Source: an uncultured Microcaldota archaeon
GTDB taxonomy: Archaea > Micrarchaeota > Micrarchaeia > Anstonellales > Bilamarchaeaceae
Length of the DNA: 44,709 nt
Direction of reading: 5' to 3'
NCBI GenBank assembly: GCA_903828955.1
Contig: CAIKOA010000035.1
Location: 1-44,709, forward strand
This document shows positions 65 through 21,758 of this stretch, one piece after another. Position numbers and translations under genes: made by a program. Below the pieces are notes generated by a model. It made no database searches. It saw nothing but the letters and a program-made list of their open reading frames with translations, and was not told where the DNA came from. How positions within the stretch are numbered: position 1 is the stretch's first letter; each line of letters starts with the position of its first letter.

Positions 65-78
65 CGCGGGCGAAAATA

Positions 79-98: not shown

Positions 99-141
99 AT
101 AGCCCGCGCACAAACTTCAGCTTTTAGCGAGCGCTTTTATT
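91..141. repeat. Left copy of a 50-bp dispersed repeat, inverted partner at 3781-3832
   Basis: This stretch matches the reverse complement of 3781-3832 over about 50 bp with roughly four mismatches, including the run AGCCCGCGCACAAACTTCAG. The partner lies inside the integrated element and abuts a fragment of the uvrB 5' end; this copy lies outside the element. Function unknown. Confidence 0.7.
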
Positions 142-175
142 CTTCCTAGACGATCCGCGCGCAGGGAGGCAGCTG

Positions 176-1718: not shown

Positions 1719-1734
1719 TGGGCCCGCTGAGATT
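1719..1734 (-). other. Left attachment site (tRNA-Ile 3' remnant)
   Basis: The sixteen bases are identical to the 3' end of tRNA-Ile: three T-loop bases, the T-stem strand, the acceptor strand and the discriminator A. The rest of the tRNA is absent here. It reads in frame within the integrase C-terminal frame as GPAEI. Confidence 0.85.
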
Positions 1735-2013
1735 AGCCTCCTGGTTTCCGGTTCACAGTTTCCAGTTTCCCGAAGTGAAAAGAACGGGTTTCCCGCATCG
1801 GGTCCCCAGCCTCCGGCACGCTGTGAAGAAAACTCGGCCAGGGCGGCAAAGGAAATCTCCAAATCCCTTAGCAGGAGGTGGCCCGAGCTAAAGGAGGAGC
1901 TGGAGTATTTTGGCCGCTACCTTACCAAGTGGAACCTGGTAAAAGCCATAACCGTCCTCTCGGAAGCCCGCAAAAGGCGCTTCCTGCGTTCAAGAAGGCC
2001 TAAATACGGCTCA
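1735..2013 (+). pseudogene. Integrase N-terminal/core-binding region, in frame upstream of ATG 2014, no start codon
   Basis: The integrase frame stays open from 1708 to the stop at 2668-2670, but contains no ATG, GTG or TTG before 2014. Residues read from about 1834 onward (SARAAKEISKSLSRRWPELK, then LEYFGRYLTKWNLVKAITVL) are the helical SAM-like core-binding part of a tyrosine recombinase. In the integrated state this segment has no start; it is completed only when the element circularises and the N-terminal piece at 10896-11069 is joined to it. Confidence 0.7.
1743..1753 (+). repeat. GGTTTCCGGTT 11-mer next to the left att core
   Basis: An exact 11-mer starting 9 bp inside the left att core. 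The same word occurs inverted at 11016-11026, 28 bp inside the right core, and again at 10707-10717. Placement on both sides of the att cores in opposite orientation suits integrase arm-type binding sites, which is an inference. Confidence 0.4.
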
Positions 2014-2670
2014 ATGAACAAAGCCTTCACTGAGGACGAACTGGAGCGATTTTTTGGGGTTATAGAGGACCCCAAGGCGCACCTGCTCTTTTCCTTTCAA
2101 GCGATTATCGGCCTTCGCATTGGGGAGGCGGTGAGGGTCAATGTCAAGGATATCAACCTGAAAACGCGCGAGCTGCGCATCTTTACCGAGAAAAGCGGCA
2201 AGACGGACTATCTCCTGATTCCAGAGAAGTTCTTTGAGGTGGTCCTGCGATATATTTCCGGCTATGAGAAGGAGATTGCCTCTGCACGCGGCTCCCTGTT
2301 TTTTTCCTTTACGCATGGGTGGAGGGGCGCGGAAACCGCGCCTTACATAGCCACCCAGACCGCGAGGGTTGCATTTCATCAATACCTGAAGAAGGCGAAG
2401 CTGGACGAGATTTATGGATACAGCGCCGGGCCTAATCCCAAGCCCCTCTTCCGCCTCACTCCGCATTCGCTACGGCACTATGCGATTTCCAACTTCTGCA
2501 GGAAAAACGGCGGGAACGTGGCACTCTCTTCCAAGTTTGCGCGGCATACGAATTTGCAGACGACTATGATTTACATCCACACGGAGAAGGAAGAGCTTTA
2601 TGCGAGCATAGAGAGGGCGCAGGACACCAAGATCTTGGAGAGGGTGAAAAGAATGCAGGAGGGGATTTGA
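2014..2670 (+). CDS. Tyrosine recombinase/integrase, catalytic domain (C-terminal part of split integrase)
   Basis: The 218-aa catalytic domain carries all active-site residues of the tyrosine recombinase (XerC/D, SSV integrase) family: Arg35 in GLRIGEA, a lysine in TEKSGKTDY (about 60-63), His151 and Arg154 in HSLRHYAIS, His178 in KFARHTNLQ and the nucleophile Tyr187 in MIYIH. It would cut and rejoin DNA at the tRNA-Ile att site. ATG 2014 is the first possible start in this piece, and the frame upstream encodes the core-binding domain. From 2014 alone a catalytic fragment could be made. The intact enzyme requires circularisation. A fragment of the uvrB 5' end lies 63 bp behind the stop. Confidence 0.88.
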   Translation: MNKAFTEDELERFFGVIEDPKAHLLFSFQAIIGLRIGEAVRVNVKDINLKTRELRIFTEKSGKTDYLLIPEKFFEVVLRYISGYEKEIASARGSLFFSFTHGWRGAETAPYIATQTARVAFHQYLKKAKLDEIYGYSAGPNPKPLFRLTPHSLRHYAISNFCRKNGGNVALSSKFARHTNLQTTMIYIHTEKEELYASIERAQDTKILERVKRMQEGI

Positions 2671-2732
2671 GCCATAGCAAAGCTTCTCCACCCCAGAAGT
2701 ATTTTCGTTGCGGAAGAGTTTAATTAGTTATT

Positions 2733-2834
2733 GCTGAGGCTGGTCGCCTGCGGGCTTGTATGCGGACTCCAACTCGTATTGCATATAGTTTCACTTATGT
2801 GAAAAGGAGAATATAAAGGATTTGGGAGTGTGAG
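2733..2834 (-). repeat. uvrB promoter + first 16 codons, truncated copy 1
   Basis: Read on the minus strand, this is a close copy of 18750-18845: the TATA-box region, the palindrome between TATA box and start, ATG, and codons MQYELESAYKPAGDQP. The copy stops being homologous after codon 16. It points leftward, antisense to the integrase 3' end. The palindrome (2789-2804, TTTCAC-ATAA-GTGAAA on the minus strand) differs from that of uvrB by a symmetrical pair of changes that preserves the dyad. Confidence 0.85.
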
Positions 2835-2905
2835 CTTTGCTAACAAACTCTATGAAAAAGACAACTTTATGAGCAAAGGGCGAGATTATTAGCAGAAGTG
2901 AAAAT

Positions 2906-3130
2906 ATGAAAGCATACCCTAATTTTAAAAATGCTGATGAGGAATCTAATTCCATGGGGCTATACGGGAATGGAAGAGCTTGGCACGGTGTTGAGCAAAG
3001 TAAGAAATGGAAATGGTTTCCTATCCTTCTTAAATGGACTTTTTTGGTTTATTCTATAAGAGTAGGAGAACCTATACAAGGAATTGTTGGATTGGTTGGT
3101 GCTTGGCTTGTCATCAGATATATCCTATAG
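2906..3130 (+). CDS. Small predicted membrane protein, unrecognised
   Basis: 74 aa, ATG start. Residues 1-37 are polar (GLYGNGRAWHGVEQ). Residues 38-74 hold one or two hydrophobic segments (FPILLKWTFLVYSI and IQGIVGLVGAWLVIRYIL), so it is probably a short membrane protein with a polar N-terminus. It overlaps the start region of the next gene, suggesting translational coupling. A+T-rich codon use unlike the chromosome flanks. No family recognised. Confidence 0.55.
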   Translation: MKAYPNFKNADEESNSMGLYGNGRAWHGVEQSKKWKWFPILLKWTFLVYSIRVGEPIQGIVGLVGAWLVIRYIL

Positions 3131-3779
3131 AGAAAAACTAACAATCCAAAACATATTCAAGTTTATTGTTGTTTTGGTGGTAATTGTCGTAATACTTGTT
3201 TTTCTTAAATTGTCTATAGATTCACAAAAATCGGATTGGGCAGGGTATACATTTGGTCTTGTTTTTGCTTTGTTAGTATTAGCATTTAAGGATAGTAGAG
3301 ATATGCTCATGAAAATTCTTTCTAGTACTACGAAAACCGCTATCCCAAAAAATGCGACTCCGCATAATGAGCGGACAGAGAAAACAGAATCAGATAGTCA
3401 TAATGTAACAGCAACTGTCGAAAATAGGAAAACACACTTGGTTATTGGTTTGACTCCCATACACCGGGAAGAGCATAATCTCAAATTCGGTATTTTGTTT
3501 AATCGAGAGATGAAGTTGGAGGAAGTGCCAGAAATAAAGTTCAGTGATGAGCACCTTACTCAGAAAGGAGTGGTATCATTTTCTCTCCCGTATGAGTTTG
3601 TGGAATACAAACGACGGAGATATGTTCCGGTAAGGTTAGATAAACCTGCTTCAGTACAAGTCCGGGATGCGTTGGAATTCTGGGTCAGTAAAGATAAAAA
3701 TCCTAAACTGAGAGTTATTTCGATAATACAGCTACAACCAGATGGAAATCACACAGAGATTCCGATACAAAAAAGGTAA
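3084..3779 (+). CDS. Membrane-anchored protein with soluble C-terminal domain, unrecognised
   Basis: The frame starts with TTG at 3084, inside the preceding gene; other non-ATG starts (TTG 3087, GTG 3099) are possible, so the start is uncertain. Residues about 24-47 (FIVVLVVIVVILVFLKLSI) and 55-70 form two membrane segments. Residues 80-115 are a polar Ser/Thr/Lys-rich linker. Residues 115-231 form a beta-rich soluble domain. The 50-bp inverted-repeat copy begins 2 bp after the stop. Topology predicts the domain on the cytoplasmic side if the N-terminus is inside. Function unknown. Confidence 0.6.
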   Translation: MLDWLVLGLSSDISYREKLTIQNIFKFIVVLVVIVVILVFLKLSIDSQKSDWAGYTFGLVFALLVLAFKDSRDMLMKILSSTTKTAIPKNATPHNERTEKTESDSHNVTATVENRKTHLVIGLTPIHREEHNLKFGILFNREMKLEEVPEIKFSDEHLTQKGVVSFSLPYEFVEYKRRRYVPVRLDKPASVQVRDALEFWVSKDKNPKLRVISIIQLQPDGNHTEIPIQKR

Positions 3780-3780
3780 A

Positions 3781-3832
3781 AAATAAAAGCGTTCGCTAAA
3801 ACCTGAAGTTTGTGCGCGGGCTATCTGTGGGC
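3781..3832. repeat. Right copy of the 50-bp inverted repeat
   Basis: Reverse complement of 91-141 with about four mismatches. It begins 2 bp after the stop of the preceding gene and runs directly into the second uvrB fragment. On the minus strand the uvrB reading frame continues through it for about 14 codons to a TAG. Confidence 0.7.
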
Positions 3833-3914
3833 TTGCATGCGAACTCCAACTCGTACTGCATAGAATTCAATTATGTGAAAAGGAGAATATAAAGGATTTG
3901 GGGGTGTGGGATCC
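3828..3914 (-). repeat. uvrB promoter + first ~11 codons, truncated copy 2
   Basis: Minus-strand reading gives the uvrB promoter block (GGATTTGG complement, the AATATAAAGGA complement with the TATA box), ATG, and MQYELEFACKP before switching into the 50-bp repeat. One half of the promoter palindrome is preserved (GTGAAA); the other is degraded. Same orientation as copy 1, so the two copies bracket 2835-3827 as direct repeats. Confidence 0.82.
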
Positions 3915-4001
3915 CACTGCTAGTAAGCGAAAGGCAATGGCGGATAGCTCACGTGGGCAATAATAAACATTACGAGAGAATAGCTAGTCCGAGTTGATTT
4001 G

Positions 4002-4640
4002 ATGAATGAAAGGCCTAAACTGCCTACTTCGCGAGATCTTTGGGTGGAGTTGCAACCTGGGGAGTCAGTATATGTCGATGAGAAGGTACCGCCTTTAGAT
4101 CCTAAGATGGCGCGTTTTCGACAAATACGCGGAAACGTTGTTGCATATGCAATAAACATCGAATATGCACTAGATTCTTTGCTTGTTGAGCTCATAGATC
4201 CTCTAAAAACTTTGAATTCGGTCATTGATGATCCCAACATGAAAAAAGCTGTGGAAGACTTAAAACTGATAGTTAATGCTGCGTGGCTCAAAAGCCGAGA
4301 TACGAATATGAGATTGAAAATAGAGATATTAAATAAAACGGCGAAGTACCACCCAATATTAAACAGCGACGAAATAGATTCTTTAGCAAGTGACTTGCAT
4401 AAGGTACATAATGTACGAAATGATTTTGCCCATCGGATGATGGTCATAAAACAAAGGAAGACTAAGGATGGATTTGATTGGGATGTTTATCTTGACTATG
4501 GAGACAAAAAATTGTTGCTTGACACATCTTATTTTAGGGGAATAGATGAGCTATATACCCGTTCGTTGAAACGTTTAGAAGACTTAACTAGAAAGTTAAA
4601 TGGAGAAACCGAAACGGAAGAGCGAAAAAATAGCGCATAA
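4002..4640 (+). CDS. HEPN-like protein with R-x4-H motif
   Basis: ATG 4002 preferred over the TTG one codon upstream. 212 aa, almost entirely alpha-helical. Residues 139-144 (RNDFAH) form the R-x4-6-H motif seen at the active site of HEPN-fold ribonucleases, which occur in toxin-antitoxin, Abi and CRISPR systems; the preceding helix (EIDSLASDLHKVHNV) has the expected polar pattern. If genuine it would cut RNA as a dimer in the cytoplasm. The family call rests on the motif and helicity only, since the motif is short. The next gene starts 29 nt downstream on the same strand and also has a HEPN/Abi-like C-terminus, so the two may form one module. Confidence 0.55.
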   Translation: MNERPKLPTSRDLWVELQPGESVYVDEKVPPLDPKMARFRQIRGNVVAYAINIEYALDSLLVELIDPLKTLNSVIDDPNMKKAVEDLKLIVNAAWLKSRDTNMRLKIEILNKTAKYHPILNSDEIDSLASDLHKVHNVRNDFAHRMMVIKQRKTKDGFDWDVYLDYGDKKLLLDTSYFRGIDELYTRSLKRLEDLTRKLNGETETEERKNSA

Positions 4641-4669
4641 CATTTAATATTTGCTAAGTCCAAATAGAT

Positions 4670-5476
4670 ATGTGTTCAGATATGGATAAAAGAATTGTTT
4701 TTGAAGCTGCGAATATTATCTGCTTGGTATATACAAAACCGAGTATGATAAATCATTTTGATGCTTTTGGGGTTGAAAAAGCGATTATTGATGAATGTTC
4801 GTCTTTTGCAAAGAAGAGGTTTGCTGAAACGGTTATGAATAGGTTGTATATGTCTACTAAAGAATCCGATCAGCGAATCGTTCATAGGATTGTTGAAGAT
4901 CTCAGCTGTAATCCGGATACCGCAAAATATAACCTTGGGTGGGATTGTGACGCATATAAAAATAAACTAGAAAAATTAAGACAGTTACTAATAGAAGACG
5001 GCTACAAAAATGAAAACGGAAAACTAATTAAAGGAACAGTGTATTTGCCGGATATAGAACAAAAGTATGAAGCCATAATTAGAAATCTGAAAGATTATGG
5101 GAGAGACGATCTAGCTATTAATTTTAGCGATGCAATAAAAAACTATTCGCAAGGCAGTCCTTTATCACTACCCGGCATAAGAAGCGTAATTGAGAATTTA
5201 CACAAGCACATACTGGATAAGAATGGCAAAATTCCTTCTAATGCAAGGGAGGATATCAAAAAACTTAGAGATATTGGGGTTTTGAAGACCATGGATCCAA
5301 AGCGCCCTGAAATAGAAACTGATTTCGCATACAATCTCTACCAGATGTTGAGTAATTGGTCTGTGCACGGAGCACGAACACCTAGTCTCGAACACGAGTA
5401 TCTATTCCAAATTTCGATTTTATATTTAGATTTTCTTATTAAAAGAATAAAACAAAGTGGAGTTAAAACCTCATAA
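4670..5476 (+). CDS. Abi/HEPN-like helical protein
   Basis: 268 aa, no membrane segment. ATG 4670; a second ATG four codons on (MDKRIVFEAAN) is possible. Residues 225-260 (LYQMLSNWSVHGARTPSLEH and the following helix) resemble the C-terminal helical block of abortive-infection/AbiJ-type HEPN proteins, where a Ser-Asn-x-x-Ser-x-His stretch precedes a long hydrophobic helix. The N-terminal 200 residues are charged helices without a family I recognise. Strongly A+T-rich. Same strand as and 29 nt behind the R-x4-H protein, suggesting co-expression. A defence or addiction role is inferred from this resemblance and the element context. Confidence 0.5.
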   Translation: MCSDMDKRIVFEAANIICLVYTKPSMINHFDAFGVEKAIIDECSSFAKKRFAETVMNRLYMSTKESDQRIVHRIVEDLSCNPDTAKYNLGWDCDAYKNKLEKLRQLLIEDGYKNENGKLIKGTVYLPDIEQKYEAIIRNLKDYGRDDLAINFSDAIKNYSQGSPLSLPGIRSVIENLHKHILDKNGKIPSNAREDIKKLRDIGVLKTMDPKRPEIETDFAYNLYQMLSNWSVHGARTPSLEHEYLFQISILYLDFLIKRIKQSGVKTS

Positions 5477-5531
5477 AGATCCATTCAATTGATGTGGGTT
5501 AGCGACTGGATGAAGAAACCAACATTCGGGT

Positions 5532-6167
5532 CTATTTTTTGCTTCGCATAATCTCAAACGCTGCATATACTGCTAAAAGCAGAACGAGCGTCAATAATAA
5601 AGAAACCGCGGCAAGCATACTGGTAACAGAAGGAGCAATCAACCAGTCTTTTAGAATATTGTAAATCTCTGCTGAAGAAAGAACGCACGTAAAAAAAGCA
5701 ACCGCGACAGTAAGGCGTTCCAATGCAAGAGAAGAACGGTCTGTTAGCCCAGGCGCGCTTTTTGAAGAAGTCAACTTCGAATAGAGCAATTTCATCTCGC
5801 TGAACTTATTAGGGTTATCCACTTTCTCTTTCAGAGAATGTTTCAGAAAAATAGTTTTATACCAGCCCACAAATGCCTCTTCAAAGAAGGCGGAAGCAGT
5901 GCGATCTACGAATTTGTGATTGACAAGATATGCAAAAAGCTCCAGCGTATTGAAGAACCTGGGGTCGATCTTCTTCTTCTGGGGCTCGCTCTTATTTTTA
6001 TCATACTCGGCTTCGATTTCTTGAAGTTTATTGAACGTCGTCATCAATATTTGAAGATTCCGGCTCTTCGCATCGTTACGAAGCGCTCCGTAGCTATACC
6101 ACAATGTCACCAGTACTCCGACAAAAGTGAAGAAGAGTATGCCAAACTCGATAACACTGTCAATCAT
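5532..6167 (-). CDS. Three-helix membrane protein, unrecognised (DUF4760-like layout)
   Basis: 211 aa. Residues 5-27 (VIEFGILFFTFVGVLVTLWY) are one membrane segment. Residues 30-145 are cytoplasmic and charged (NDAKSRNLQILMTTFNKLQE, then a Lys/Glu-rich stretch). Residues 150-175 and 180-205 form two more segments. This N-terminal-TM plus helical-domain layout recalls DUF4760-type phage/plasmid proteins, but the match is not firm. Its ATG overlaps the stop of the 50-aa protein upstream (ATGA), so the two are translationally coupled. Confidence 0.6.
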   Translation of the reverse strand: MIDSVIEFGILFFTFVGVLVTLWYSYGALRNDAKSRNLQILMTTFNKLQEIEAEYDKNKSEPQKKKIDPRFFNTLELFAYLVNHKFVDRTASAFFEEAFVGWYKTIFLKHSLKEKVDNPNKFSEMKLLYSKLTSSKSAPGLTDRSSLALERLTVAVAFFTCVLSSAEIYNILKDWLIAPSVTSMLAAVSLLLTLVLLLAVYAAFEIMRSKK

Positions 6168-6316
6168 TTACTTCCCTTATCTTTAGGTTTTCTTGCCTCT
6201 TCCATTGGCGTGCCATCATATGACTTTTTCATCTCTCTGATCCCCGAGAGAGTCTCATGACTCTTACGCCCTACCTCTTGTTTTCCAGTGGGTATCTTTT
6301 TTGTTTCGTTAGCCAT
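6164..6316 (-). CDS. 50-aa basic hydrophilic protein coupled to the membrane protein
   Basis: Minus-strand frame MANETKKIPTGKQEVGRKSH... ending in PKDKGSK, 50 aa, Lys-rich and without hydrophobic segments. An upstream in-frame ATG gives MITMANET (6325). The stop TGA overlaps the ATG of the next gene by ATGA, which strongly suggests a real, translated, coupled gene. No family recognised; a small partner or DNA/RNA-binding peptide is possible. Confidence 0.55.
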   Translation of the reverse strand: MANETKKIPTGKQEVGRKSHETLSGIREMKKSYDGTPMEEARKPKDKGSK

Positions 6317-6406
6317 GGTTATCATCTCTGCCCATACTGGGCGTTTTCTAAATGTGGCTAAGGGATATTAATATTATGCTTGGGGTAGATTTTCAGTGTT
6401 TTTTCC

Positions 6407-6600
6407 AAAACCGATTTATACCCCCCCACCAATATTCGCACTGGCCTCAATCACTCTTTTTGGCGGCGCCGGGGAAATCGGCGGAAACGTGGTGCTAATC
6501 GAAGACAAAGACGCTAAGATCTACCTGGACTTCTGGCAGCACTTCACCTTCAAAGGAGACTTATTCTACGACCGGCTGCAGCCAAGGAACGCACGACCTA
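6407..6600 (+). pseudogene. RNase J-like gene fragment: promoter + about 50 codons, start lost
   Basis: The translated stretch ITLFGGAGEIGGNVVLIEDK followed by LDF and RLQPR is clearly homologous to the N-terminus of the beta-CASP nuclease encoded at 15744-17114. Homology continues upstream into the promoter (AAACC-ATTTATAC). The start ATG is changed to CTG. Homology ends shortly before 6605, directly at the 3' end of the TPR gene. Because amino acids are only moderately similar, the source may be a paralogue rather than the copy in this window. No catalytic histidines are present. Confidence 0.75.
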
Positions 6601-6605
6601 TAAGC

Positions 6606-7226
6606 CTATTTTAAGGGTGAGCCCATTAATACGCTCTGCCACCCTTGTGGCAATACGATGTTGGGTTCAATTTCCCTAGCTTTTTCGTAGTCGCTTCTTG
6701 CCTTGGTTATATTCTTCATTTTTTGATATATGAAACCTCTCTCTATGTAAGAATCGGCCATTTTTGGCTGTAATTTTATTGCTTTTGAAAGATCAGCTAT
6801 ACCTTTATTGAAATCTCCGAGGTCTCCGTAGGTCCTTCCCCTAAGATATAGCAAATATATTGAAGTAGGATTAATGGAGAGCCCTTTGCTACAGTATTCA
6901 ATAGCTTTTGCATATTCTTTATTTCCGGCCTTGCCTAGTGCAAGAGCTCGATACATAAAATCATCTTTGGAGCTCACCTCAAAAAAAATCCAAGACTTGT
7001 ATTTGGCATAATGCTGTTCGTGTAGCTTCTTAAGGTCTCTAACGCAAGTTTTCTCGTCTAATTCTTTCCATGAATTACTATTAAAGCTCTCTTCATTGCA
7101 AGTAGATCTTAGAAAAGAATTTGCTCTTGCATATAGTTCTTTCATTCTTTCGTATTCTTCTGCACTCGGTTCTTGCTTGTTCTTTGGGCCACCAAAGAAC
7201 TTACTTAAAAAATCCATAAAATCCAT
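6606..7226 (-). CDS. Tetratricopeptide-repeat protein
   Basis: 206 aa. The N-terminal 90 residues are charged helices. Residues about 95-200 hold three consecutive TPR units; readable signatures are LGKAGNKEYAKAIEYCSKGL, the unit around YLRGRTYGDLGDFNKGIADL, and YIERGFIYQKMKNITKARSD. TPRs mediate protein-protein contacts. No signal peptide. It follows the HtrA-like gene on the same strand after 12 nt, so the two likely form an operon and the TPR protein may act with the protease. The 3' end abuts the RNase J-like gene fragment. Confidence 0.82.
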   Translation of the reverse strand: MDFMDFLSKFFGGPKNKQEPSAEEYERMKELYARANSFLRSTCNEESFNSNSWKELDEKTCVRDLKKLHEQHYAKYKSWIFFEVSSKDDFMYRALALGKAGNKEYAKAIEYCSKGLSINPTSIYLLYLRGRTYGDLGDFNKGIADLSKAIKLQPKMADSYIERGFIYQKMKNITKARSDYEKAREIEPNIVLPQGWQSVLMGSPLK

Positions 7227-7238
7227 TTCAACGCCTCA

Positions 7239-9164
7239 TCAGTAATGGCATTGCCCATCCCACCCGTAAGTAGTTCCTTCTGGGCAGCATATTCCTTCAG
7301 TAGCGTATTCATATCCCGGAGCGCAGCAAGTTCCGTCATCATATGCGCTATATCCAGGAGGACAGCATACTCCATCTCCGTAATAATCCCAGCCAGTTCT
7401 ACAGCAGTTGCCGTCTGCATAGCCCTCATACCCTGGATTACAAGAGAAACACGTTCCTGCTGATGGACCCGTAGTTGCACAGTTAGGATACTCGCTATCA
7501 CAGCCACACTCTTGGCAATAGTCAATCAGGTCTCCATTAGAGCAATAAAGGCCAACAAAGGAAGAACAGTAGCCATAGGGCGTTCCATCTACGCATTTTG
7601 GGGCGGGAACAAAACTACTCCAACTGTCATAATTAGACAATCTCTGCAGTTCCTTCAATTCAATTGCAAAGTTAAGACCTTCAGTATCCGTGAGTATGAA
7701 TGTGTTTATACCAATCAGAGTTCCAGAACTCTTCAGGAAGAGTCCCCCGCCGCTATTACCCGGATTTATCGCGGCGTCAGTCTGTATCGTGGTATATTTG
7801 TAATTGGAATCAGTGTATTCCTCCATAAAGTTGGAGATTATCCCATCAGATACACTGCCCTGAAGCCCAAGGGGGGAACCCAAAGCGAGAACCTCTTGCC
7901 CTTTGCTGTATGGTTCAGAATAATTAAAGGAAACCAACTTCCCATAAGTTCCAGTTACGTATATTACTGCGAAATCCATATCGTTAGGAGCAACTCTGAT
8001 TGCATCTGCATGAGCGCTTTTCCCATCATCAGTTTTGATTGATAAATCATTAACACTGTCCGCACCCTCAACAACGTGGCGGTTGGTCAGAATAATTGTT
8101 TTGCCCCCTTCCTGAGCAATTACCACTCCAGACCCACTGGCAAAGGAATGTTCTACATAGACGACACTCTGCTGAAGGTCAGCCACCAATTCTGTTGTTT
8201 GCTCTTCTTTGGTTATGCAAGTTCCTTTATGGCATACTAATCCTGAGGAACAACCACAAACGGAGCAATCAAAAACGAGCATTTTGCTATCGTTACAGAG
8301 ACTCCCAATCGATTTTGTAGAGCAATCTCCTACGAGCGTCCCGTCTTCACATGTTCTGGGAAGCACATTTATCTCAAAAGTTTGGCTTTCTGATGGGCTG
8401 TAAGAAGAATCTCCTCCAAACATCACCTTGACGTTTTTATTACCCGCTTCACTGTATACTATCTGGATTACTGCCCTGCCATTCGCATCCGTGCGGGCCA
8501 TCTCGTTTAATGAGTTTGAAACAACCAATTGTTTATTACCCAAAACACTGCCGTCTATTGAGTTCTTTAATGTGACCGTTATATTCGCCCCTTCTTTAGC
8601 AATAACCTCACTTGGGACGGTTACCTGCAACGTAGTTGGAATAAATATTGTTGAGACTGAACTGCTCGAAGCAGGCTTATGGAATGAATCTCCATTGTAA
8701 GCTATCGTTAAGTTGATTGATTTTCCACACCACTCTGAAGGGACCTTCTTTTCATATGAAATGCGTCCATTCTGATCAGTAGAAAGTTTTTCAAACAATG
8801 AATCATTCACGTAGATATTCACTGGTTGGTTTGCTAGAGGGTTACCGTTCGCATCATTCAGTTCGATTGAGTATGTGAACGCTTCGTTGCATGCACTTGC
8901 AGGAAAACTAAGGTCAGCCACCAGGTTTGTTGGGGCCTGAAAGTATCCAGATAGGAACAAATATCCTAATGCAATGGCTCCGATTATGACCACGAGAGCA
9001 ATAATCGCCGGCAACACAACAGCGATAGCGAGTGGAACGCTTGGGGCAGATACGCTAATTGCCCTGGTGGGGGCGGTTGCCAAACTTGCACCGCACTCGG
9101 GGCAGAATTTTCCTGCCTTTACTTTTTTACCGCACTTTGGACAGACTTGGGTATCCTTTTTCAT
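7239..9164 (-). CDS. Membrane-anchored zinc-ribbon / Ig-like / HtrA-type serine protease
   Basis: 641 aa multi-domain protein. Residues 8-25 are a zinc ribbon (CPKCGKKVKAGKFCPECG) predicted cytoplasmic. Residues about 43-72 are a membrane segment. Residues 80-270 are two Ig-like (invasin/Big-type) beta domains (ANGNPLANQPVNIYV; DGSVLGNKQLVVSN). A Cys-rich linker follows. The S1C (DegP/HtrA) protease domain then shows the full triad: His in TNRHVVEGA, Asp in NDMDFAVIYV, Ser in NPGNSGGGLF. No PDZ domain follows; the last 120 residues are Cys-rich and EGF-like. It probably sits in the membrane with an external protease, acting on envelope or foreign proteins. Unusual domain order; likely operon with the TPR gene. 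Confidence 0.85.
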   Translation of the reverse strand: MKKDTQVCPKCGKKVKAGKFCPECGASLATAPTRAISVSAPSVPLAIAVVLPAIIALVVIIGAIALGYLFLSGYFQAPTNLVADLSFPASACNEAFTYSIELNDANGNPLANQPVNIYVNDSLFEKLSTDQNGRISYEKKVPSEWCGKSINLTIAYNGDSFHKPASSSSVSTIFIPTTLQVTVPSEVIAKEGANITVTLKNSIDGSVLGNKQLVVSNSLNEMARTDANGRAVIQIVYSEAGNKNVKVMFGGDSSYSPSESQTFEINVLPRTCEDGTLVGDCSTKSIGSLCNDSKMLVFDCSVCGCSSGLVCHKGTCITKEEQTTELVADLQQSVVYVEHSFASGSGVVIAQEGGKTIILTNRHVVEGADSVNDLSIKTDDGKSAHADAIRVAPNDMDFAVIYVTGTYGKLVSFNYSEPYSKGQEVLALGSPLGLQGSVSDGIISNFMEEYTDSNYKYTTIQTDAAINPGNSGGGLFLKSSGTLIGINTFILTDTEGLNFAIELKELQRLSNYDSWSSFVPAPKCVDGTPYGYCSSFVGLYCSNGDLIDYCQECGCDSEYPNCATTGPSAGTCFSCNPGYEGYADGNCCRTGWDYYGDGVCCPPGYSAYDDGTCCAPGYEYATEGICCPEGTTYGWDGQCHY

Positions 9165-9205
9165 GCTTTTACTAAATGTGCAAGAAATTTAAGGCTAACC
9201 ATTGA

Positions 9206-9868
9206 ATGTTGCATATGAATCGAACACTCTTCGTCCTTCTCATCATGGGCGTGCTTCTTTTTTCTGGATGTTGTAGTTATCTTACCCCAGAACAGTCTAC
9301 TGGCGGGTATACACAACAACCAGCCGAAACTAAACCTATGATTACTATTTCCTTCTGCAATTCACTCACTACCCAGGAAATTCAATCAACTTGTCTTCAG
9401 AACTGGGCCGGAAAGATTCAAGATGACCAAAGATTGCGGGATTACCTTACTTACTGGGATACCGTACTCAAAGATGCGAAAGACCTTGACGCGATAGCTC
9501 AGGATTTAGAGGCTTCTGGAAATGCATGGAATGCCGCGGACACAACTGAAGAAAGAACTTCTGCTTATAGGAGTTATAGTGTATCTGCACAGGAATACGC
9601 TACTAAGTTGGAAACTACTACGACCCACTTAACCAATTTTCAGACTTTCATTAGTCAAAATAAAGCCTACTTTGATTCTCAAGGGGTCAATAGCGTGCAA
9701 CAAATAAATTTTATAATAACCACGAAAGGAGACCTCAAATCAACAACTTATGGGATTCAATCCAACTTAGAGTTGATGGGGCAATCCTTAGCATTAGAGG
9801 GTCAGGCGAAGCAACAGAACGACGCACTGATACAAACGTTGCTTCAGTTGGCGGTTGGATTGATATAA
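9206..9868 (+). CDS. Lipoprotein, helical, unrecognised
   Basis: 220 aa. Hydrophobic signal peptide (LFVLLIMGVLLFSGC) ending in a lipobox-like LFSGC, so Cys at about residue 22 is the probable lipidation site; the ATG at 9206 or the ATG three codons on both fit. A Thr/Gln/Pro-rich linker follows, then a mostly helical domain (residues 45-215) with an early Cys pair (SFCNSLTTQEIQSTCLQNW). Divergent from the HtrA-like gene with 41 bp between starts, so they share a promoter region. No family recognised. Confidence 0.65.
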   Translation: MLHMNRTLFVLLIMGVLLFSGCCSYLTPEQSTGGYTQQPAETKPMITISFCNSLTTQEIQSTCLQNWAGKIQDDQRLRDYLTYWDTVLKDAKDLDAIAQDLEASGNAWNAADTTEERTSAYRSYSVSAQEYATKLETTTTHLTNFQTFISQNKAYFDSQGVNSVQQINFIITTKGDLKSTTYGIQSNLELMGQSLALEGQAKQQNDALIQTLLQLAVGLI

Positions 9869-10193
9869 TATTACTAGCCGCTCATTCTCGCCTTGCGGCG
9901 TGCTCGCATTAATCGTTTTCCCCTCGCTCCAGCGAAAAGCACTTAATGCTCAAGCCCCGGCGGGGGTTCGGTGCTGGCGCACCGAAAGCAATAATGTGCA
10001 TTTTCGCCTCCGCTCAGGGCCGGCTTGCGCCTAAACGAATAATAGCTCGCACCGAACGAGCGGCCTATTTCTACTACTGGCGGGGAAGTTTGCTCGCTTC
10101 CCTCCTTTCAGCCCTTTAAATGAAATTTGCGGGCTTCGGAGTGAAGCTCGCTTAAAACTTCCCCTACGGGAGTAGCCGGGGAAGGGAAAGGTG
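9869..10193 (+). other. Structured non-coding leader candidate with alternative stems
   Basis: No credible gene in 325 bp, but it is GC-rich and full of inverted repeats. Visible stems: 9877-9883 with 10058-10064 (long-range GCCGCTC/GAGCGGC); 9968-9974 with 9979-9985; CCCC/GGGG at 9955-9965; 10129-10137 with 10143-10151; and 10082-10090 with 10156-10164 (GGGGAAGTT/AACTTCCCC). The strand 10158-10164 can pair instead with GGGGAAG 10178-10184, right before the ribosome binding site of the 28-aa frame. Such mutually exclusive stems resemble a riboswitch or attenuator. No known RNA class recognised. Confidence 0.45.
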
Positions 10194-10280
10194 ATGAAAA
10201 TGGAAACAGAAGAGAAACCAAAATGGGATGAAAGGAAACGGGCGGACGAAGACTGGGTCCGCGATGTCGGAGGCTGGTAA
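10194..10280 (+). CDS. 28-aa peptide upstream of the four-helix-bundle gene
   Basis: ATG 10194 follows GGAAAGGTG, a good archaeal ribosome binding site. It encodes MKMETEEKPKWDERKRADED plus WVRDVGGW, then TAA 2 bp before the next ATG. Highly charged with two Trp near the end. It may be a leader peptide or a small partner of the following protein; tight spacing implies coupled translation. Too short for a family call. Confidence 0.45.
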   Translation: MKMETEEKPKWDERKRADEDWVRDVGGW

Positions 10281-10282
10281 AT

Positions 10283-10645
10283 ATGCAGAACTTCAAAAAT
10301 CTGAAAGTGTATGAAGAGGCGTTCCGCCTCTCAAAGGACATTTTCGAGTTCATGGAGGACAAGAAGATGAGCATGAGGGCCAAGGAGCAGCTCCTTGCCT
10401 CCGCGTCTTCCATCTGCGCCAACCTTGCGGAAATGGGCGCCTTCGATTCCAGGAAAGCCCAGAGGCAGAAGCTGGTCACCTGCATAGGGGAAGCCAACGA
10501 AACCGAGTTCTGGCTGGATTTATGCAATTCCCTGAAAATCATACCGCAAAGGGAACACCTGAACTTTATGACTTCCCTTGTGCGCGTCCGCTCAATGCTC
10601 TGCAAGCTGAAAAGCGCAATAGAAGAAGGTGATGAAAAAGACTGA
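10283..10645 (+). CDS. Four-helix-bundle protein (23S rRNA IVP/S23 family)
   Basis: 120 aa. The opening NFKNLKVYEEAFRLSKDIFE, then SICANLAEM and ANETEFWLDLCNSL, is the signature of the IVP/TIGR02436 four-helix-bundle family. These were first found encoded in 23S rRNA intervening sequences; relatives act as accessory nucleic-acid-binding proteins (e.g. Avd of diversity-generating retroelements). No reverse transcriptase is present here. It sits inside the integrated element, behind the structured region and the 28-aa peptide. Base composition is closer to the chromosome than to the rest of the element. Function in this context unknown. Confidence 0.88.
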   Translation: MQNFKNLKVYEEAFRLSKDIFEFMEDKKMSMRAKEQLLASASSICANLAEMGAFDSRKAQRQKLVTCIGEANETEFWLDLCNSLKIIPQREHLNFMTSLVRVRSMLCKLKSAIEEGDEKD

Positions 10646-10656
10646 ATGAACTTATA

Positions 10657-10785
10657 CCACTGGCAAAACGCAGGCTGACCAAGCCCGCTTCCGGTTTCCC
10701 GTATACGGTTTCCGGTTGCGCCCGGTCGGTCGAAACCTGACACGCCAAATCTGCTCCGGCGTGCCTAGCGGAGCTTTGCCAGTGG
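10657..10785. repeat. Inverted repeat with 107-bp interior near the right end of the element
   Basis: The arms CCACTGGCAAA (10657-10667) and TTTGCCAGTGG (10775-10785) are perfect 11-bp complements. The interior holds GGTTTCCGGTT (10707-10717) and a near-copy of it, and no gene is seen. May be a recombination or regulatory site of the element. Confidence 0.45.
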
Positions 10786-10895
10786 AAACATACCTCCAAA
10801 ACGCATAAAAAGCATAGAAAAGAAAACGCAAAAGGCCAATGAAGGTATACAAACTTTCGTTGCCTTTGTTTGCCAAGGAAATGAGGTGAAACATA

Positions 10896-11072
10896 ATGGA
10901 AAACGACCAAGAGTTCACTTTTCCACAGGCCCGATGCCTATGGAAAGTGAACTCAAAGAAAACTAAGGCAAAAAAGGAAGCAGCAGAAACTAATCCTGTA
11001 GACGTAGAAAATGGGAACCGGAAACCCGGAACCGCAAACAAATTTAGTGAGATTGGGCCCGCTGAGATTTGA
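10896..11072 (+). CDS. N-terminal part of the split integrase, intN
   Basis: 58-aa frame beginning MENDQEFTFPQARCLWKVNS and ending ...FSEIGPAEI at TGA 11070-11072. GAGGTGA at 10884-10890 is a good ribosome binding site 5 nt before ATG. Its last five codons are the att core, which overlaps the tRNA-Ile 3' end on the other strand. In the circular element the same core leads in frame into 1735, so this piece would supply the start and first 58 residues of the integrase. Partitioned SSV-type intN pieces are of similar size and position. Its sequence alone has no domain I recognise; the call rests on frame continuity. A 14-bp imperfect hairpin (10911-10925/10941-10954) lies inside the gene. Confidence 0.72.
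   Translation: MENDQEFTFPQARCLWKVNSKKTKAKKEAAETNPVDVENGNRKPGTANKFSEIGPAEI
10911..10954. repeat. Long hairpin inside intN
   Basis: GAGTTCACTTTTCCA and TGGAAAGTGAACTC are complementary over 14 bp with one extra T, separated by 15 bp. It lies 100 bp from the right att core and 20 bp after the intN start. Could bind a protein or mask translation. Confidence 0.5.
11016..11026 (-). repeat. GGTTTCCGGTT 11-mer (inverted) next to the right att core
   Basis: Exact inverted copy of 1743-1753; 28 bp inside the right att core. Candidate arm-type integrase site. Confidence 0.4.
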
Positions 11073-11128
11073 ACTCAGGACCTTTCGATTATCAGTCGAA
11101 CGCTCCAGCCTGGCTGAGCTACGGGCCC
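11054..11128 (-). tRNA. tRNA-Ile(GAT)
   Basis: A complete 75-nt cloverleaf on the minus strand. The acceptor GGGCCCG/CGGGCCC, D stem GCTC/GAGC, anticodon stem TTCGA/TCGAA with loop CTGATAA (anticodon GAT), and T stem CTGAG/CTCAG with loop TTCAAAT are all perfect; discriminator A. No encoded CCA and no intron. Its last 16 nt form the right att site of the element, so the tRNA stays functional after integration. The original downstream sequence now lies at 1718 and leftward. Confidence 0.96.
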
Positions 11129-11243
11129 AAATAAGTGGATTTTCTTTTAGATTGATAACTCTTTTAAACCTCTCGTAATTTTTAAAAGGACTATGAGGGG
11201 TTGCTGGGGGTGAAGCCACTTAGGGGGCGCTCCCCTGAGGGGC

Positions 11244-15743: not shown

Positions 15744-17114
15744 TCAAAGCGTTATTTTCTTTCCTTTTTCCGCAACGATTGCATCCTTTCCCTTGAACAT
15801 CTGCGGGTTCTGCGTATGGATTGGAATTAGTTTTTTAGCGTCAATCTCTTCCACGAATTCGAATATTTCCTGCATGGACGCATGCCCGGATGCGTGAAGC
15901 TGGTGCCTTTCCATTCCAAACCTTGTTAGCCAGTTCTGGAGAACCTCATCCTGCAATTGGGAACTCGGGTCTTCCTCAAAAGGCTCGCTCATGGAGTGGA
16001 TGCACGCGCTGTGCGCAACCGGCTCAATATCGATTAGTTCCTGCATCTGGGAAAAATCCAATTCCCAGATAATCGCTTTCTGGTTCTTCATTACCCATTC
16101 AGAATTAACGCAGTGGTCTAGGAGCGGAAGTTCCCAGGCCTTGTAAATAATCATCTTTCTTCCGTAAATCTCAATGTTCTCATCTTCTAATGGGTTCGGA
16201 AGCCCAATCCTGTCACCTTTCAGGGAAAGGAGAAGGTGCGCGGTTTTCAGGCTAATTACCAATTTCCTTCCGCTCTCTTTTGCAATCGTATAAAATGTCC
16301 TGAACCGATCCAAATCCTTCGGATACCTCATTGCAAGAACCATTCCCTTGCTTTCCTTCACAACCCTTCCGCTTTCGGAATGCACGAACTGCTCGGTGTG
16401 GTTTTTCCTGCTCTCCACTTCCGCAACGCGCGTTCCTTCAATTATGAGCGCTTCAGGCTCGGCCTCAATTGCGCTATTTATGAAATCCATGGTCATTTCC
16501 GGCTTGTTCCCGTGCTTGCGCAAATCCCCGGTATATGCAATCGTTCCCTCGCTTGTTTCCACAAGGAATCCATATGCACCCGGAACCGAGTGATCCACAT
16601 GGATTGGAGTAATTTCCAAACCCCCAACCTTTATCTTCTCCCCACTTCTAAACGTCTTGATTTTATTTGGTGGGATTTTCGTCCCGTCCCTTTTCTCCCA
16701 TCCATCTTCCGAGTATACGGACATTCCGGTCGTATGCTGGGTCGAATCCAATATTTTCTTGCAGGCTTCGCCCATATAGATTGGAATCTCCTGCTCAAGG
16801 AAAGCGAGGTGCGCAACATGGTCCTGGTGGGCGTGCGAAATGAAGACCGCATCATATTCCGGGGCGGTGTGCTTCAGGTCCGTGCATTTAACCGCCTCGT
16901 GGTTGTAGAGCCCGGGTATTTTCGGCATTAAACCTAGAGCAAAATAATCCTTCAGCCCAAACCGCCCACGGGGCTGGAGCCAATCCACAAAATACTCATC
17001 CAGTAATCCGAACGCCTGCCCAAAATCCAAAAATACCTTTGTCTTCTTGTCTTCAATTAGCACCTTGTTTCCGCCGATTTCTCCGGCTCCCCCGAAAAGA
17101 GTGATTGAGACCAT
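15744..17114 (-). CDS. RNase J-like beta-CASP metallo-nuclease
   Basis: 456 aa; start set at MVSITLFGGAGEIGG because the frame two codons earlier begins with TTG. The metallo-beta-lactamase motifs are FISHAHQDHVAHL (HxHxDH, two-metal site), THxDHSVPG as IHVDHSVPGAYGF, and TGDLRKHG. The beta-CASP region contains LIIEGTR, and the C-terminal ASGHAS and LIPIHT motifs. It therefore looks like a processing exo/endoribonuclease of the RNase J / aCPSF family, lacking KH domains. A fragment of a homologous gene, including its promoter, lies inside the element at 6407-6600. Promoter with TTTATAC about 27 bp before ATG. Confidence 0.88.
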   Translation of the reverse strand: MVSITLFGGAGEIGGNKVLIEDKKTKVFLDFGQAFGLLDEYFVDWLQPRGRFGLKDYFALGLMPKIPGLYNHEAVKCTDLKHTAPEYDAVFISHAHQDHVAHLAFLEQEIPIYMGEACKKILDSTQHTTGMSVYSEDGWEKRDGTKIPPNKIKTFRSGEKIKVGGLEITPIHVDHSVPGAYGFLVETSEGTIAYTGDLRKHGNKPEMTMDFINSAIEAEPEALIIEGTRVAEVESRKNHTEQFVHSESGRVVKESKGMVLAMRYPKDLDRFRTFYTIAKESGRKLVISLKTAHLLLSLKGDRIGLPNPLEDENIEIYGRKMIIYKAWELPLLDHCVNSEWVMKNQKAIIWELDFSQMQELIDIEPVAHSACIHSMSEPFEEDPSSQLQDEVLQNWLTRFGMERHQLHASGHASMQEIFEFVEEIDAKKLIPIHTQNPQMFKGKDAIVAEKGKKITL

Positions 17115-17169: not shown

Positions 17170-17868
17170 CTACTCCTCGAAAAACAGCTCTTTTATGAAT
17201 CCCTGCACTTCCGCATACATCTTCTTTCCATCCAGGTTAGGCACCAATGAGTCTATTTTGCCCATGTCCGTATCCGCCCCATGGTGCCGGGCGATTATCA
17301 CTCTCGGGTCGGTTCTTGCCTTGTGCGCCATATTGATTAGCAGTTGCATGAGCCGCTTCCTCTCAAAAGGAAGGTCCTTCCCCACCCAGACATCATAAAG
17401 GTCCTTAGGAACGCCTCTATTGGTAAACGCAAGGATTTTCTCCGCAAAAAGAACCTCATACTCATAAGTCAATACGTCCGCATAATATGCCGTATACCCA
17501 AAATGGTAGGGTATCGATTCCGCGCGCATCCGTTTAGGTTCCGCATCCACGTTTTTCTTTGATAAGTCTATATTTATCTTATTCTTATCCGCAAACCTGT
17601 GCATTTTCGGGGTTTTTATGTCATGCTTGAATATTTTATCGAATTCCGTTTCGCATTTTTCCAGGTTTGCGCATTTCAGGTCAATATCATAGGAAATTCT
17701 CTGCCTTTTCCCGAAATAGACCATGTTCAGGGCGGTTCCCCCATATAAGGCGTAATCCAGCTTGGGTTCGTTGAATAGCTCCCTAAGGCGCTCTATCACG
17801 TTTGCCTCCACGTTCAGCTTGTCCTGCGTTATGCCGGTTGCCGCGGTAATATCCTGGAAGTTCTCCAT
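17170..17868 (-). CDS. AbiEii/AbiGii-type nucleotidyltransferase toxin
   Basis: 232 aa. YGGTALNMVYFGKRQRISYD at residues 41-60 gives the GG(T/S)-x9-D-x-D nucleotidyltransferase core (continuing IDLKC), and LFAEKILAFTNRGVPKDLYD supplies the downstream Lys/Arg/Asp signature of AbiEii. Such toxins transfer nucleotides, for some to tRNA, and block growth until antitoxin acts (type IV TA). The partner AbiEi-like gene is divergent, starting 43 bp away, rather than in the usual operon. The C-terminal helices end in an acidic tail. It lies directly upstream of uvrB on the map. Confidence 0.87.
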   Translation of the reverse strand: MENFQDITAATGITQDKLNVEANVIERLRELFNEPKLDYALYGGTALNMVYFGKRQRISYDIDLKCANLEKCETEFDKIFKHDIKTPKMHRFADKNKINIDLSKKNVDAEPKRMRAESIPYHFGYTAYYADVLTYEYEVLFAEKILAFTNRGVPKDLYDVWVGKDLPFERKRLMQLLINMAHKARTDPRVIIARHHGADTDMGKIDSLVPNLDGKKMYAEVQGFIKELFFEE

Positions 17869-17911
17869 GGTAATGTATTGAATGCAAACCTATTTAAAAT
17901 TATGCATATAA

Positions 17912-18646
17912 ATGTCATCTATGTCAAAAAATGAGTTTTTTTTAAACAACACGCTGAAAGCCCTTCCCCCAGTCTTCAGAGTGAAAAACCTCTCGGTTCT
18001 CGGAGGGCCCCGGACCGCTTACCGGCTATTAACGGAAATGCAGAAAAGCAAAATGATATGCAAGGCGGGAAAGGGGCTTTACGGAAAGGTTGCCGAGGAT
18101 CCATATCTAGTTGCGTATCTATCTAATGGGGGCTATATCGGGTTCTCCTCCGCCTTGTATATCCAGGGGCTCAAGACCGAAACCGAGCGGCTAATCTACA
18201 TTGGCTCTTCGCGTTCCGGCCGGGTCAAATTTTGGGCAAACGAATTCGTCCTGGTAAATATGGGTGAATATCTCTTTGGCACTAAAAAGGTGGAGCGGCA
18301 TGGGAAAGAGATGCTTGCTTCTACTCCTGTAAAAACCCTCTTCGACATGTGCCACAGGCCGAAATACGCGGATTTCTACTGCATGTACAGGGCGATGAAC
18401 TGGAAACCCTTCTCTTCAACGGACTGGAAGGAGCTTGCGCGTTATTGCGCAATGGCGCCGCTCAGCACCCGGAGAAGGATTGGATATATCGTTGATGGGA
18501 AAGCTCCGAAAGGAATACTGCGCAAAATCGAATCCCTGAACTCGGATAAGGGGATTTCGTTCCTTTATGGGAAAGGCGGAGATTATTCGGCAAAGTGGAG
18601 GATTTACGATTCGGAATACGTGCGCAGGTGGATTGACGAGGTTTGA
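17912..18646 (+). CDS. AbiEi-like antitoxin/regulator
   Basis: 244 aa. The N-terminal winged helix has TAYRLLTEMQKSKMICKAGK followed by GLYGKV (residues about 37-62), as in AbiEi antitoxins that repress their own promoter. The middle contains the typical GYIGFSSALYIQGL block and the ETERLIYIGSSRSGRVKFWA strand region. The C-terminal half is the toxin-neutralising type domain with ASTPVKTLFDMCHRPKYAD. Divergent from the toxin gene, so a shared 43-bp A+T-rich promoter (TTAAAATTATGCATATAAAT region) could be repressed by it on both sides. Confidence 0.82.
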   Translation: MSSMSKNEFFLNNTLKALPPVFRVKNLSVLGGPRTAYRLLTEMQKSKMICKAGKGLYGKVAEDPYLVAYLSNGGYIGFSSALYIQGLKTETERLIYIGSSRSGRVKFWANEFVLVNMGEYLFGTKKVERHGKEMLASTPVKTLFDMCHRPKYADFYCMYRAMNWKPFSSTDWKELARYCAMAPLSTRRRIGYIVDGKAPKGILRKIESLNSDKGISFLYGKGGDYSAKWRIYDSEYVRRWIDEV

Positions 18647-18792: not shown

Positions 18793-20739
18793 ATGCAGTA
18801 TGAGTTGGAGTCCGCATACAAGCCCGCAGGCGACCAGCCTTCAGCGATAGCCAAACTCACGGAAGGAATCAAGAAGGAAGGGATGCAGACTCTCCTCGGA
18901 GTAACCGGCTCCGGGAAAACCTTCACCATGGCGAATGTAATCGCAAATTCCGGCAAGCCCGCAATAGTAATTTCCCACAATAAAACCCTCGCCGCCCAGC
19001 TTTATGCGGAATTCCAGCAATTCTTCCCAAAGAACAACGTGGGCTTCTTCGTTTCCTATTATGATTATTACCAGCCGGAAAGCTACATCGCGCAAACCGA
19101 CACCTACATAGAAAAGGAGGCCGAAAGAAACGAAAAGCTCGAGCAGTTCCGCCTCCAGGCAACATCCTACCTACTTTCCGGGTTCCCGACCGTAATAATC
19201 GCATCCGTTTCCTGCATTTACGGATTGGGAAACCCGAGCGAATACAAAAAACTGGGAATGCAATTCTCAGTAGGCGGAGAAATAGGGAGAAAGGAGCTCC
19301 TCAAATCCCTGGTGAAAATGCAATACGCAAGAAACGATGCGGCCCCGGATAAGGGAAAATTCAGGATGCGCGGGGAAATGCTCGAACTGATCCCTCCTTT
19401 TTCCGATGATGCGGTAAGGGTTCTTTTCGAAGATGAAAAAATAGAAAAGATTGAGTTCTTCGATCCATTGACCGGAAAGAAAACAAGCGTGCAAACCTAC
19501 CTGCTTCTTCCCGCAAAGCACTTCGTAGTTTCAGATGAGAAGAAATGGGATGCGCTCGCTTCAATTGAAAAGGAATTGGAGGAAACCGCCCCCACTCTTA
19601 AAATGCTGGAAAAACAGCGCCTGGAGCAGAGAACCAAATACGATTTGGAAATGATTAAGGAACTCGGCTACTGCTCAGGGATTGAAAACTACTCAAGGCA
19701 CTTTGATGGAAGAAATCCGGGGGAAAAACCCTTCTGCCTGCTGGATTACTTCCCGAAAGATTTCCTCATGTTCATAGATGAATCCCACGTAACCCTTCCG
19801 CAGGTAAGGGGGATGTACAACGGCGACCACAGCAGGAAAACCGCTTTGGTTGAAAATGGATTCAGGCTTCCCTGTGCATACGACAACCGCCCACTGAAGT
19901 TTGAGGAATTCGAAAAATTCATGAAGAACGTAATCTTTGTTTCCGCAACCCCATCCCAATACGAGCTTACGCACTCAGTTCAGATTGTTGAGCAGATTGT
20001 CCGCCCCACCGGATTAGTGGACCCGCAGATAGAAATAAGGAAAACCTCCGGGCAGGTTGAGGATTTACTCCAAGAAGTTCTTGAACGCGCAAAAAAGAAC
20101 GAGCGCACCCTGGTTACTACGCTCACTAAAAGAATGGCTGAAGACCTTGCAACCTACCTCCACCAGAAGGGCGCAAAGGTGCGCTATCTTCACTCGGAAA
20201 TAGAAACCTTTGAGAGAAGCAAATTAATCCGGGAACTACGCTTGGGTAAATTCGATTGCCTCGTAGGAATAAACCTCCTTAGAGAAGGATTGGATATTCC
20301 AGAGGTTTCCTTAGTTGCAATTTTAGATGCAGACAAGACCGGTTTCCTGCGTTCAGCCAACTCTCTAATCCAAACAATTGGAAGGGCAGCAAGAAACGTG
20401 AATGGAAAAGTAATCATGTACGCAGACGAAACCTCCGAAGCAATGGCGCTCGCAATCGCGGAAACCGAAAGAAGGCGCAATAAGCAGATCGAATTCAACA
20501 AGGAGAACGGAATAACCCCGAAAACAATCATTAAGCCGGTCCCGCCGGAAGCGGATATGGGAGAAAAGGAGGAGAAGGTCCCGACCGGCCTCACCAAGGT
20601 GCAAAAGGAGGAACTAATCCTTCTTTACGAAGAACAGATGAAGGAAGCAGCGGAAAACCTTGATTTCGAGAAAGCGATCGCATTCAGGGATAAAATAAGG
20701 AAATTGAGGGCAAAGGAAGGGAGAAAGAAGAAAGATTAG
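18793..20739 (+). CDS. uvrB: UvrB excinuclease subunit
   Basis: 648 aa, full length. Walker A GVTGSGKTFT at about residues 36-45, the beta-hairpin region YYDYYQPESYIAQTDTYIEK, DEAD-type MFIDESH, motif SATPSQYE, and helicase motifs VRYLHSE, VGINLLREGLDIPEVSLVAI and QTIGRAARN. The C-terminal UVR motif (LLYEEQMKEAAENLDFEKAI) would contact UvrC. UvrB receives damage from UvrA, opens the DNA and holds it for UvrC. The first 16 codons and promoter recur twice in the element at 2733-2834 and 3828-3914. AbiE genes lie upstream and the PemK operon downstream on the opposite strand. Confidence 0.97.
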   Translation: MQYELESAYKPAGDQPSAIAKLTEGIKKEGMQTLLGVTGSGKTFTMANVIANSGKPAIVISHNKTLAAQLYAEFQQFFPKNNVGFFVSYYDYYQPESYIAQTDTYIEKEAERNEKLEQFRLQATSYLLSGFPTVIIASVSCIYGLGNPSEYKKLGMQFSVGGEIGRKELLKSLVKMQYARNDAAPDKGKFRMRGEMLELIPPFSDDAVRVLFEDEKIEKIEFFDPLTGKKTSVQTYLLLPAKHFVVSDEKKWDALASIEKELEETAPTLKMLEKQRLEQRTKYDLEMIKELGYCSGIENYSRHFDGRNPGEKPFCLLDYFPKDFLMFIDESHVTLPQVRGMYNGDHSRKTALVENGFRLPCAYDNRPLKFEEFEKFMKNVIFVSATPSQYELTHSVQIVEQIVRPTGLVDPQIEIRKTSGQVEDLLQEVLERAKKNERTLVTTLTKRMAEDLATYLHQKGAKVRYLHSEIETFERSKLIRELRLGKFDCLVGINLLREGLDIPEVSLVAILDADKTGFLRSANSLIQTIGRAARNVNGKVIMYADETSEAMALAIAETERRRNKQIEFNKENGITPKTIIKPVPPEADMGEKEEKVPTGLTKVQKEELILLYEEQMKEAAENLDFEKAIAFRDKIRKLRAKEGRKKKD

Positions 20740-21210: not shown

Positions 21211-21220
21211 AACATCACTC

Positions 21221-21748: not shown

Positions 21749-21758
21749 CAAACCACCA

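Follow-up and report, generated by a model that had tools for sequence, protein, structure and literature searches.

The stretch analysed here, called the window throughout, comprises bases 1-44709 of contig C35 in a draft archaeal genome of 1.22 Mb (35 contigs, 95.6% complete). It carries three short 5' fragments of host genes, two from uvrB (stubs 1 and 2) and one from an RNase J-like gene (stub 3), together with an intact uvrB and an intact RNase J-like gene, RNJ2, which are divergent neighbours with an AbiEii/AbiEi pair between them (Table 1). Stub 2, pointing leftward, cargo B, and stub 3, pointing rightward, repeat the divergent layout of the intact slot in inverted form; within this one genome, uvrB and RNase J flanks thus enclose AbiE at one place and cargo B at another. 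Because the source genes are adjacent divergent neighbours, the three stubs are evidently not independent, and what the first-pass annotation took for the same functional part captured three times is better described as the two flanks of a single divergent slot.

Table 1. Features of the tRNA-Ile island and of the RNJ2-uvrB slot, in order of position in the window.
Feature	Position	Strand	Remarks
attL-like tRNA-Ile 3' fragment (TGGGCCCGCTGAGATT), island left end	1719..1734	plus	exact 16-bp match to 11054-11069
Island tyrosine integrase	1732..2670	plus	Pfam PF00589, E 1.6e-17
uvrB stub 1	2729-2833	minus	promoter core, start codon and ~17-22 codons, then stop; 88.7% identity to 18744-18849
Cargo A	2906..3779	plus	small ORF 2906-3130 and membrane-type ORF 3084-3779; weak similarity to 2TM effector
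Degenerate IS200/IS605-type right end	3779..3833	minus	fused to uvrB stub 2 at the AGCCCGCAG microhomology
uvrB stub 2	3825-3908	minus	promoter core, start codon and ~12-13 codons; ~88% identity to 18747-18829
Cargo B	3999..6325		HEPN-like ORF 3999-4640 (plus), ORF 4670-5476 (plus), membrane ORF 5532-6167 (minus), small ORF 6164-6325 (minus)
RNase J-like stub (stub 3)	6408-6615	plus	TATA region, degraded start (CTG), ~57 codons, frameshifted
Further variable cargo	6606..9868		TPR protein (minus, Pfam), presumed zinc-ribbon/trypsin-like protein (minus), presumed lipoprotein-like ORF (plus)
Island right-end module	9875..11052		four helix bundle protein 10283-10645, TIGR02436 E 9e-18; kept in relative G001
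Intact tRNA-Ile(GAT), island target and right boundary	11053..11129	minus	ARAGORN
Intact RNase J-like gene RNJ2	15744..17114	minus, start 17114	TIGR00649 E 1.5e-21
AbiEii (minus)/AbiEi (plus) module	17170..18646		Pfam AbiEii E 1.3e-16; PADLOC AbiEi E 4e-19
Intact uvrB	18793..20739	plus	73-78% amino-acid identity to uvrB of G001, G005 and G011

That the fragments derive from these genes, as had been supposed at first reading, is borne out by identities of 77-89% to the intact genes. A genome self-comparison covering 1,220,304 of 1,223,890 bases, rebuilt by joining stretches, gave E-values of 1.5e-30 for stub 1 and 8.9e-21 for stub 2; its results are complete for 5' and 3' fragments, and those for internal fragments refer to fragments among the matches listed. 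By BLAST, the start of uvrB occurs at exactly three places in the whole genome (the intact gene and its two stubs), and that of the RNase J-like gene likewise at three: RNJ2, stub 3 and a paralogue on contig C30. Stub 3 resembles one paralogue at its 5' end (6408-6508, 82% identity to RNJ2) and the other downstream (6462-6615, 77% identity to the C30 gene), its ATG has become CTG, and its frame shifts near codon 54-57. Besides these three, no gene-specific, non-repetitive 5' stub was noticed in the 1.22 Mb, where the remaining matches were dispersed repeats, contig overlaps and domain paralogues; the stubs are therefore not scattered through the genome. A further candidate, at C8:96445-96733, was rejected as an ordinary paralogue of a 100-aa domain.

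The first-pass annotation credited each stub with a TATA region, a start and the first 11-50 codons. All three do keep a TATA-like stretch, and in both uvrB stubs the promoter core agrees with the intact gene at 23 of 24 bases (the short leader is conserved at 13 of 18), but the start codon is gone from stub 3 and the inner breaks fall at about codon 17-22, 12-13 and 57 for stubs 1, 2 and 3, respectively. The breaks differ, and no core, such as the first-pass annotation proposed to look for, appears to be common across the genes; an apparent extension of stub 1 homology past codon 22 was discarded, its tail alignment being no better than shuffles. Stub 1 differs from uvrB at two of 47 coding bases, both changes synonymous, and stub 2 carries three non-synonymous differences in 37 coding bases. 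On these small counts, stub 1 appears to have arrived recently from a uvrB that was diverged but still working, and stub 2 to be older, decaying debris. At the other end, all the stub homologies cease directly upstream of the promoters, each beside different cargo; what lies beyond resembles neither the corresponding DNA of the other stubs nor the AbiE spacer. For stub 2, a hidden homology on the far side of the promoter seemed possible at first and was not significant against dinucleotide shuffles with the promoter block excluded. Such an arrangement, in which homology stops at the promoters and unrelated regions lie beyond, is as expected for cargo exchange between fixed flanks.

We consider a second genome of the same order, G033, the most informative comparison. 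Its gene order runs HAD phosphatase, VapBC-like and other cargo, RNase J stub, HAD 3' stub, a gene for a 359-aa cargo protein and intact RNase J (the names HAD and VapBC are ones we presume from the ORF sequences). The RNase J 5' stub is 57 bp long and 100% identical to the intact start, an exact duplication around a 1.2 kb insert (L241:13259-14493), and the HAD 3' stub retains ~27 codons, with 69% amino-acid identity over 26 residues and, over the best stretch, ~83% DNA identity to the local HAD end. The joint shows about 2 bp of microhomology, and the RNase J break falls at codon 18, as against ~57 in the window stub. HAD genes lie near RNase J in several relatives, at spacings from none to ~3 kb. 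G033 therefore appears to hold two tandem alleles of an HAD/RNase J slot, with a flank end of each gene at their joint. Since one of the retained flanks is the 3' end of a gene, promoters are not what is selected; what is kept seems to be whichever end of the flanking gene touches the slot, namely the 5' end for the divergent uvrB and RNJ2, and the HAD 3' and RNase J 5' ends in G033.

In the window, each stub points at the 3' end of a gene convergent with it: the integrase (stop at 2670), ORF 3084-3779 and the TPR gene at 6606-7226. The geometry reported at first reading is thus correct, except that stub 2 is not joined directly to its cargo gene, an IS200/IS605-type end intervening. Stub 2 ends AGCCC(A/G)CAG and is followed by ~50 bp of this end, which abuts the stop codon of cargo A; at the joint uvrB and the repeat have AGCCCGCAG in common, a 9-bp microhomology, and the junction is best read as microhomology-mediated. 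It accounts for one of the two uvrB breaks, which lie ~20-30 bp apart. The IS end is 93-94% identical to the copies at window 90-144, in C35, and at the edges of contigs C1, C16, C27 and C34, which are mutually identical over the compared stretch; given that divergence, the end beside stub 2 is an old, distinct remnant. A related copy stands in G050, downstream of an ORF that we take, from reading its sequence rather than from a profile match, to be an IS200/IS605-type TnpA.

The DNA that holds the stubs is itself recognisable by its ends. An intact tRNA-Ile and a displaced fragment of it form direct repeats in the correct orientation (an exact 16 bp, at 1719 and 11054), and in G001, of the same genus, an island occupies the syntenic tRNA-Ile, and the phosphodiesterase, glycosyltransferase and uvrB genes downstream of it come in the same order. 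Nucleotide identity between the two islands is 68.6% at the integrase end and 81% at the right end (window 9875-10821), and the cargo between is wholly different. From these conserved ends and tRNA-Ile repeats, we take 1719-11053 to be a 9.3 kb tRNA-Ile integrative island with all three stubs inside its hypervariable cargo zone. Homologues of the integrase occur in 17 of the 84 genomes of the order, and in most of the 17 a tRNA-Ile-type 3' motif (GGGCCC..GAGATTTGAACTC), present in the window at 1719-1734, lies upstream of the gene. As the homologous integrases adjoin tRNA-Ile fragments, uvrB was rejected as the attachment site of the neighbouring integrase; its site in tRNA-Ile contradicts insertion by that enzyme into uvrB. 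Of the earlier proposal that the 5' ends of host genes serve as insertion sites, what survives is that cargo does lie beside these 5' ends, here as in G033.

With moderate confidence, we suggest that the stubs are what remains of the flanks of displaced alleles from a variable uvrB-RNJ2 slot, and mostly ordinary recombination debris. The present allele of the slot would be AbiE, with cargo A (together with stub 1) and cargo B representing other alleles. DNA segments carrying cargo A or B would have brought only short pieces of the genes flanking the slot, these pieces being 5' ends because the genes diverge from it. Illegitimate recombination, or recombination assisted by microhomology, may then have joined the segments within the island's cargo zone, where the stubs would now be decaying. 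Both the origin of the alleles in a donor and the route by which they recombined are inferred, and a dedicated function of the retained promoters is not expected.

Several observations weigh against this explanation. Neither cargo A nor cargo B was found in an intact uvrB-RNJ2 slot in any genome searched; the slot itself was seen in this genome only, in a comparison that had no sibling strain to draw on. The stubs are inverted with respect to the intact slot and ~9-16 kb away from it, so that an additional rearrangement is needed. Stub 3 blends features of two paralogues, the unit made up of stub 1 and cargo A has no recognisable RNase J flank, and the closeness of the two uvrB breaks is also expected of a site-specific process.

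The main rival, which we regard as unlikely, is that the island acquired stretches of neighbouring chromosome through several separate illegitimate events (aberrant excision or IS-linked deletion, for example), so that the divergent layout would be a coincidence of proximity. Proximity there certainly is: uvrB and RNJ2 lie 6-8 kb from the tRNA end of the island, and in G001 uvrB is natively ~2-3 kb from this tRNA-Ile. The uvr region is also rearranged with respect to G001, where uvrB, uvrA and uvrC are contiguous, and an IS200/IS605-type end is fused to stub 2. Yet three events would be needed, each keeping only the slot-side 5' end in the orientation that the slot predicts, and when the whole island was compared with the genome by BLAST, no further fragments of nearby genes came up. 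Identities of 77-89% to the resident genes, with only synonymous coding changes in stub 1, point instead to a diverged donor.

It is improbable, in our estimation, that the stubs are original 5' ends displaced by a mobile element which, in the manner of dusA-specific islands, is specific for the 5' end of either gene, uvrB or RNase J, and supplies a replacement start. Their shape would fit, uvrB codons 11-17 are strongly conserved at the DNA level in relatives, and in G033 the RNase J start is repeated, perfectly and in direct orientation over 57 bp, around the insert. Against this stand the tRNA-Ile site of the adjacent integrase, the unequal inner breaks, and strands opposite to those of the intact genes (uvrB stubs minus and uvrB plus; RNase J stub plus and RNJ2 minus). 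In the other uvrB loci that were read, no stub adjoins the gene, and the G033 insert has no integrase and holds an HAD 3' end, which is unexpected in an element. A related proposal, to which we assign a lower probability still, is that small integrase-less cassettes repeatedly insert at the starts of conserved genes (uvrB and RNase J) in these archaea, each bringing a promoter and first codons that replace those of the target; the target would remain functional, its old start being displaced. If true, this would be a new insertion strategy.

Nor do we favour the idea that the stubs persist as promoters driving RNA antisense to the genes for the integrase, cargo A and the TPR protein; no positive evidence for it was found, and its chance seems slight. 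That all three stubs face a convergent gene would happen by chance one time in eight if they were independent, which they are not, and the conservation of the uvrB core over the leader (23/24 and 13/18) can date from driving a working gene. Moreover, a T-rich stretch belonging to the IS end lies at the 3' end of cargo A, at most ~60 bp after stub 2, stub 3 has lost its ATG, G033 keeps the 3' end of a gene with no promoter there, and no host-gene stub was found in the islands of G013 and G001, each compared with its own genome. Least probable of all is an assembly artefact joining sequence from a sibling strain at repeats: the draft is in 35 contigs, several of which begin in the same IS end, but the end at stub 2, at 93-94% identity to mutually identical copies, is a distinct old copy and a poor point of misassembly, and the island ends match those of the G001 island.

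Displaced alleles of a variable slot, the reading that we favour, have counterparts elsewhere. Recombination at flanking core genes drives many horizontal transfer hotspots (Oliveira et al. 2017, PMC5635113), which, as here, hold variable cargo including defence-like genes between conserved flanking genes; what would set the present case apart is that displaced alleles persist in pieces, bordered by short flank stubs, after relocation to an archaeal tRNA-Ile island. For Vibrio type VI loci and for Rhs loci, homology-facilitated illegitimate recombination, with homology at one end and an illegitimate joint at the other, has been put forward as the way in which displaced modules accumulate in arrays (PMC5361080). 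There, as here, alleles that arrive in succession would pile up at a single locus, and parts of the earlier ones stay behind. The remnants in our case are ends of flanking housekeeping genes rather than immunity genes, the cargo is unrelated, and the tandem form is seen in G033. Transformation, too, can produce tandem duplications via alternative pairing (PMC3784515). Compared with Islander-type tRNA islands (PMC4383910), the island is ordinary in its terminal tyrosine integrase, its intact tRNA-Ile with displaced 3' fragment and its variable cargo, and the stubs within it have nothing to do with the attachment site. At dusA-specific islands (PMC4482086), too, a protein-coding gene leaves its displaced 5' end at one side of the inserted DNA, but those islands have a dedicated integrase that recombines within the target and they lie between direct repeats, an arrangement not found here. 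The best-supported account would be that cargo is exchanged at slots flanked by conserved genes and that an illegitimate joint now and then leaves a displaced allele behind, together with short flank ends. Apparent 'captured promoters' can then be read as flank scars that record the slot of origin of a cargo segment; such scars could trace the exchange of defence genes in uncultured archaea for which there are no strain collections, and could test cargo-slot turnover where no dedicated integrase takes part.

The tRNA-Ile islands with a conserved integrase end appear to form a family within this archaeal order, the four helix bundle right end being common to the window and G001. In G013 the integrase is present in two tandem copies 9 kb apart, with different cargo after each. 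No relatives of the integrase or of cargo ORF 3999-4640 were found among viral contigs. This ORF has an RNDFAH motif and weak Csm6/CARF-HEPN similarity, and may encode a HEPN ribonuclease of a defence system; a search of the phylum's 300 other genomes gave no homologue of the neighbouring ORF 4670-5476. A single scan of the RNase J-like protein against named genomes yielded one partial contig (labelled Candidatus ainarchaeum) lacking uvrB context. The zinc-ribbon/trypsin-like and lipoprotein-like names given to the cargo further right are our own assignments from the ORF sequences.

Elsewhere in the window, a MazF-like ORF and a second ORF (20872-21790) split uvrB from uvrA, which are contiguous in G001, and an antiporter gene lies on the other side of the uvr cluster by comparison with that genome. 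Window 1-145 is itself an IS200/IS605-type right end, which also begins contigs C1, C16 and C34 and terminates C27; the unique DNA beyond the terminal TTTTATT of the repeat varies by contig, and the repeat probably broke the assembly. Near the opposite end, at 43547-44578, a gene for a short secreted-type protein is present in two tandem copies that are 88% identical.

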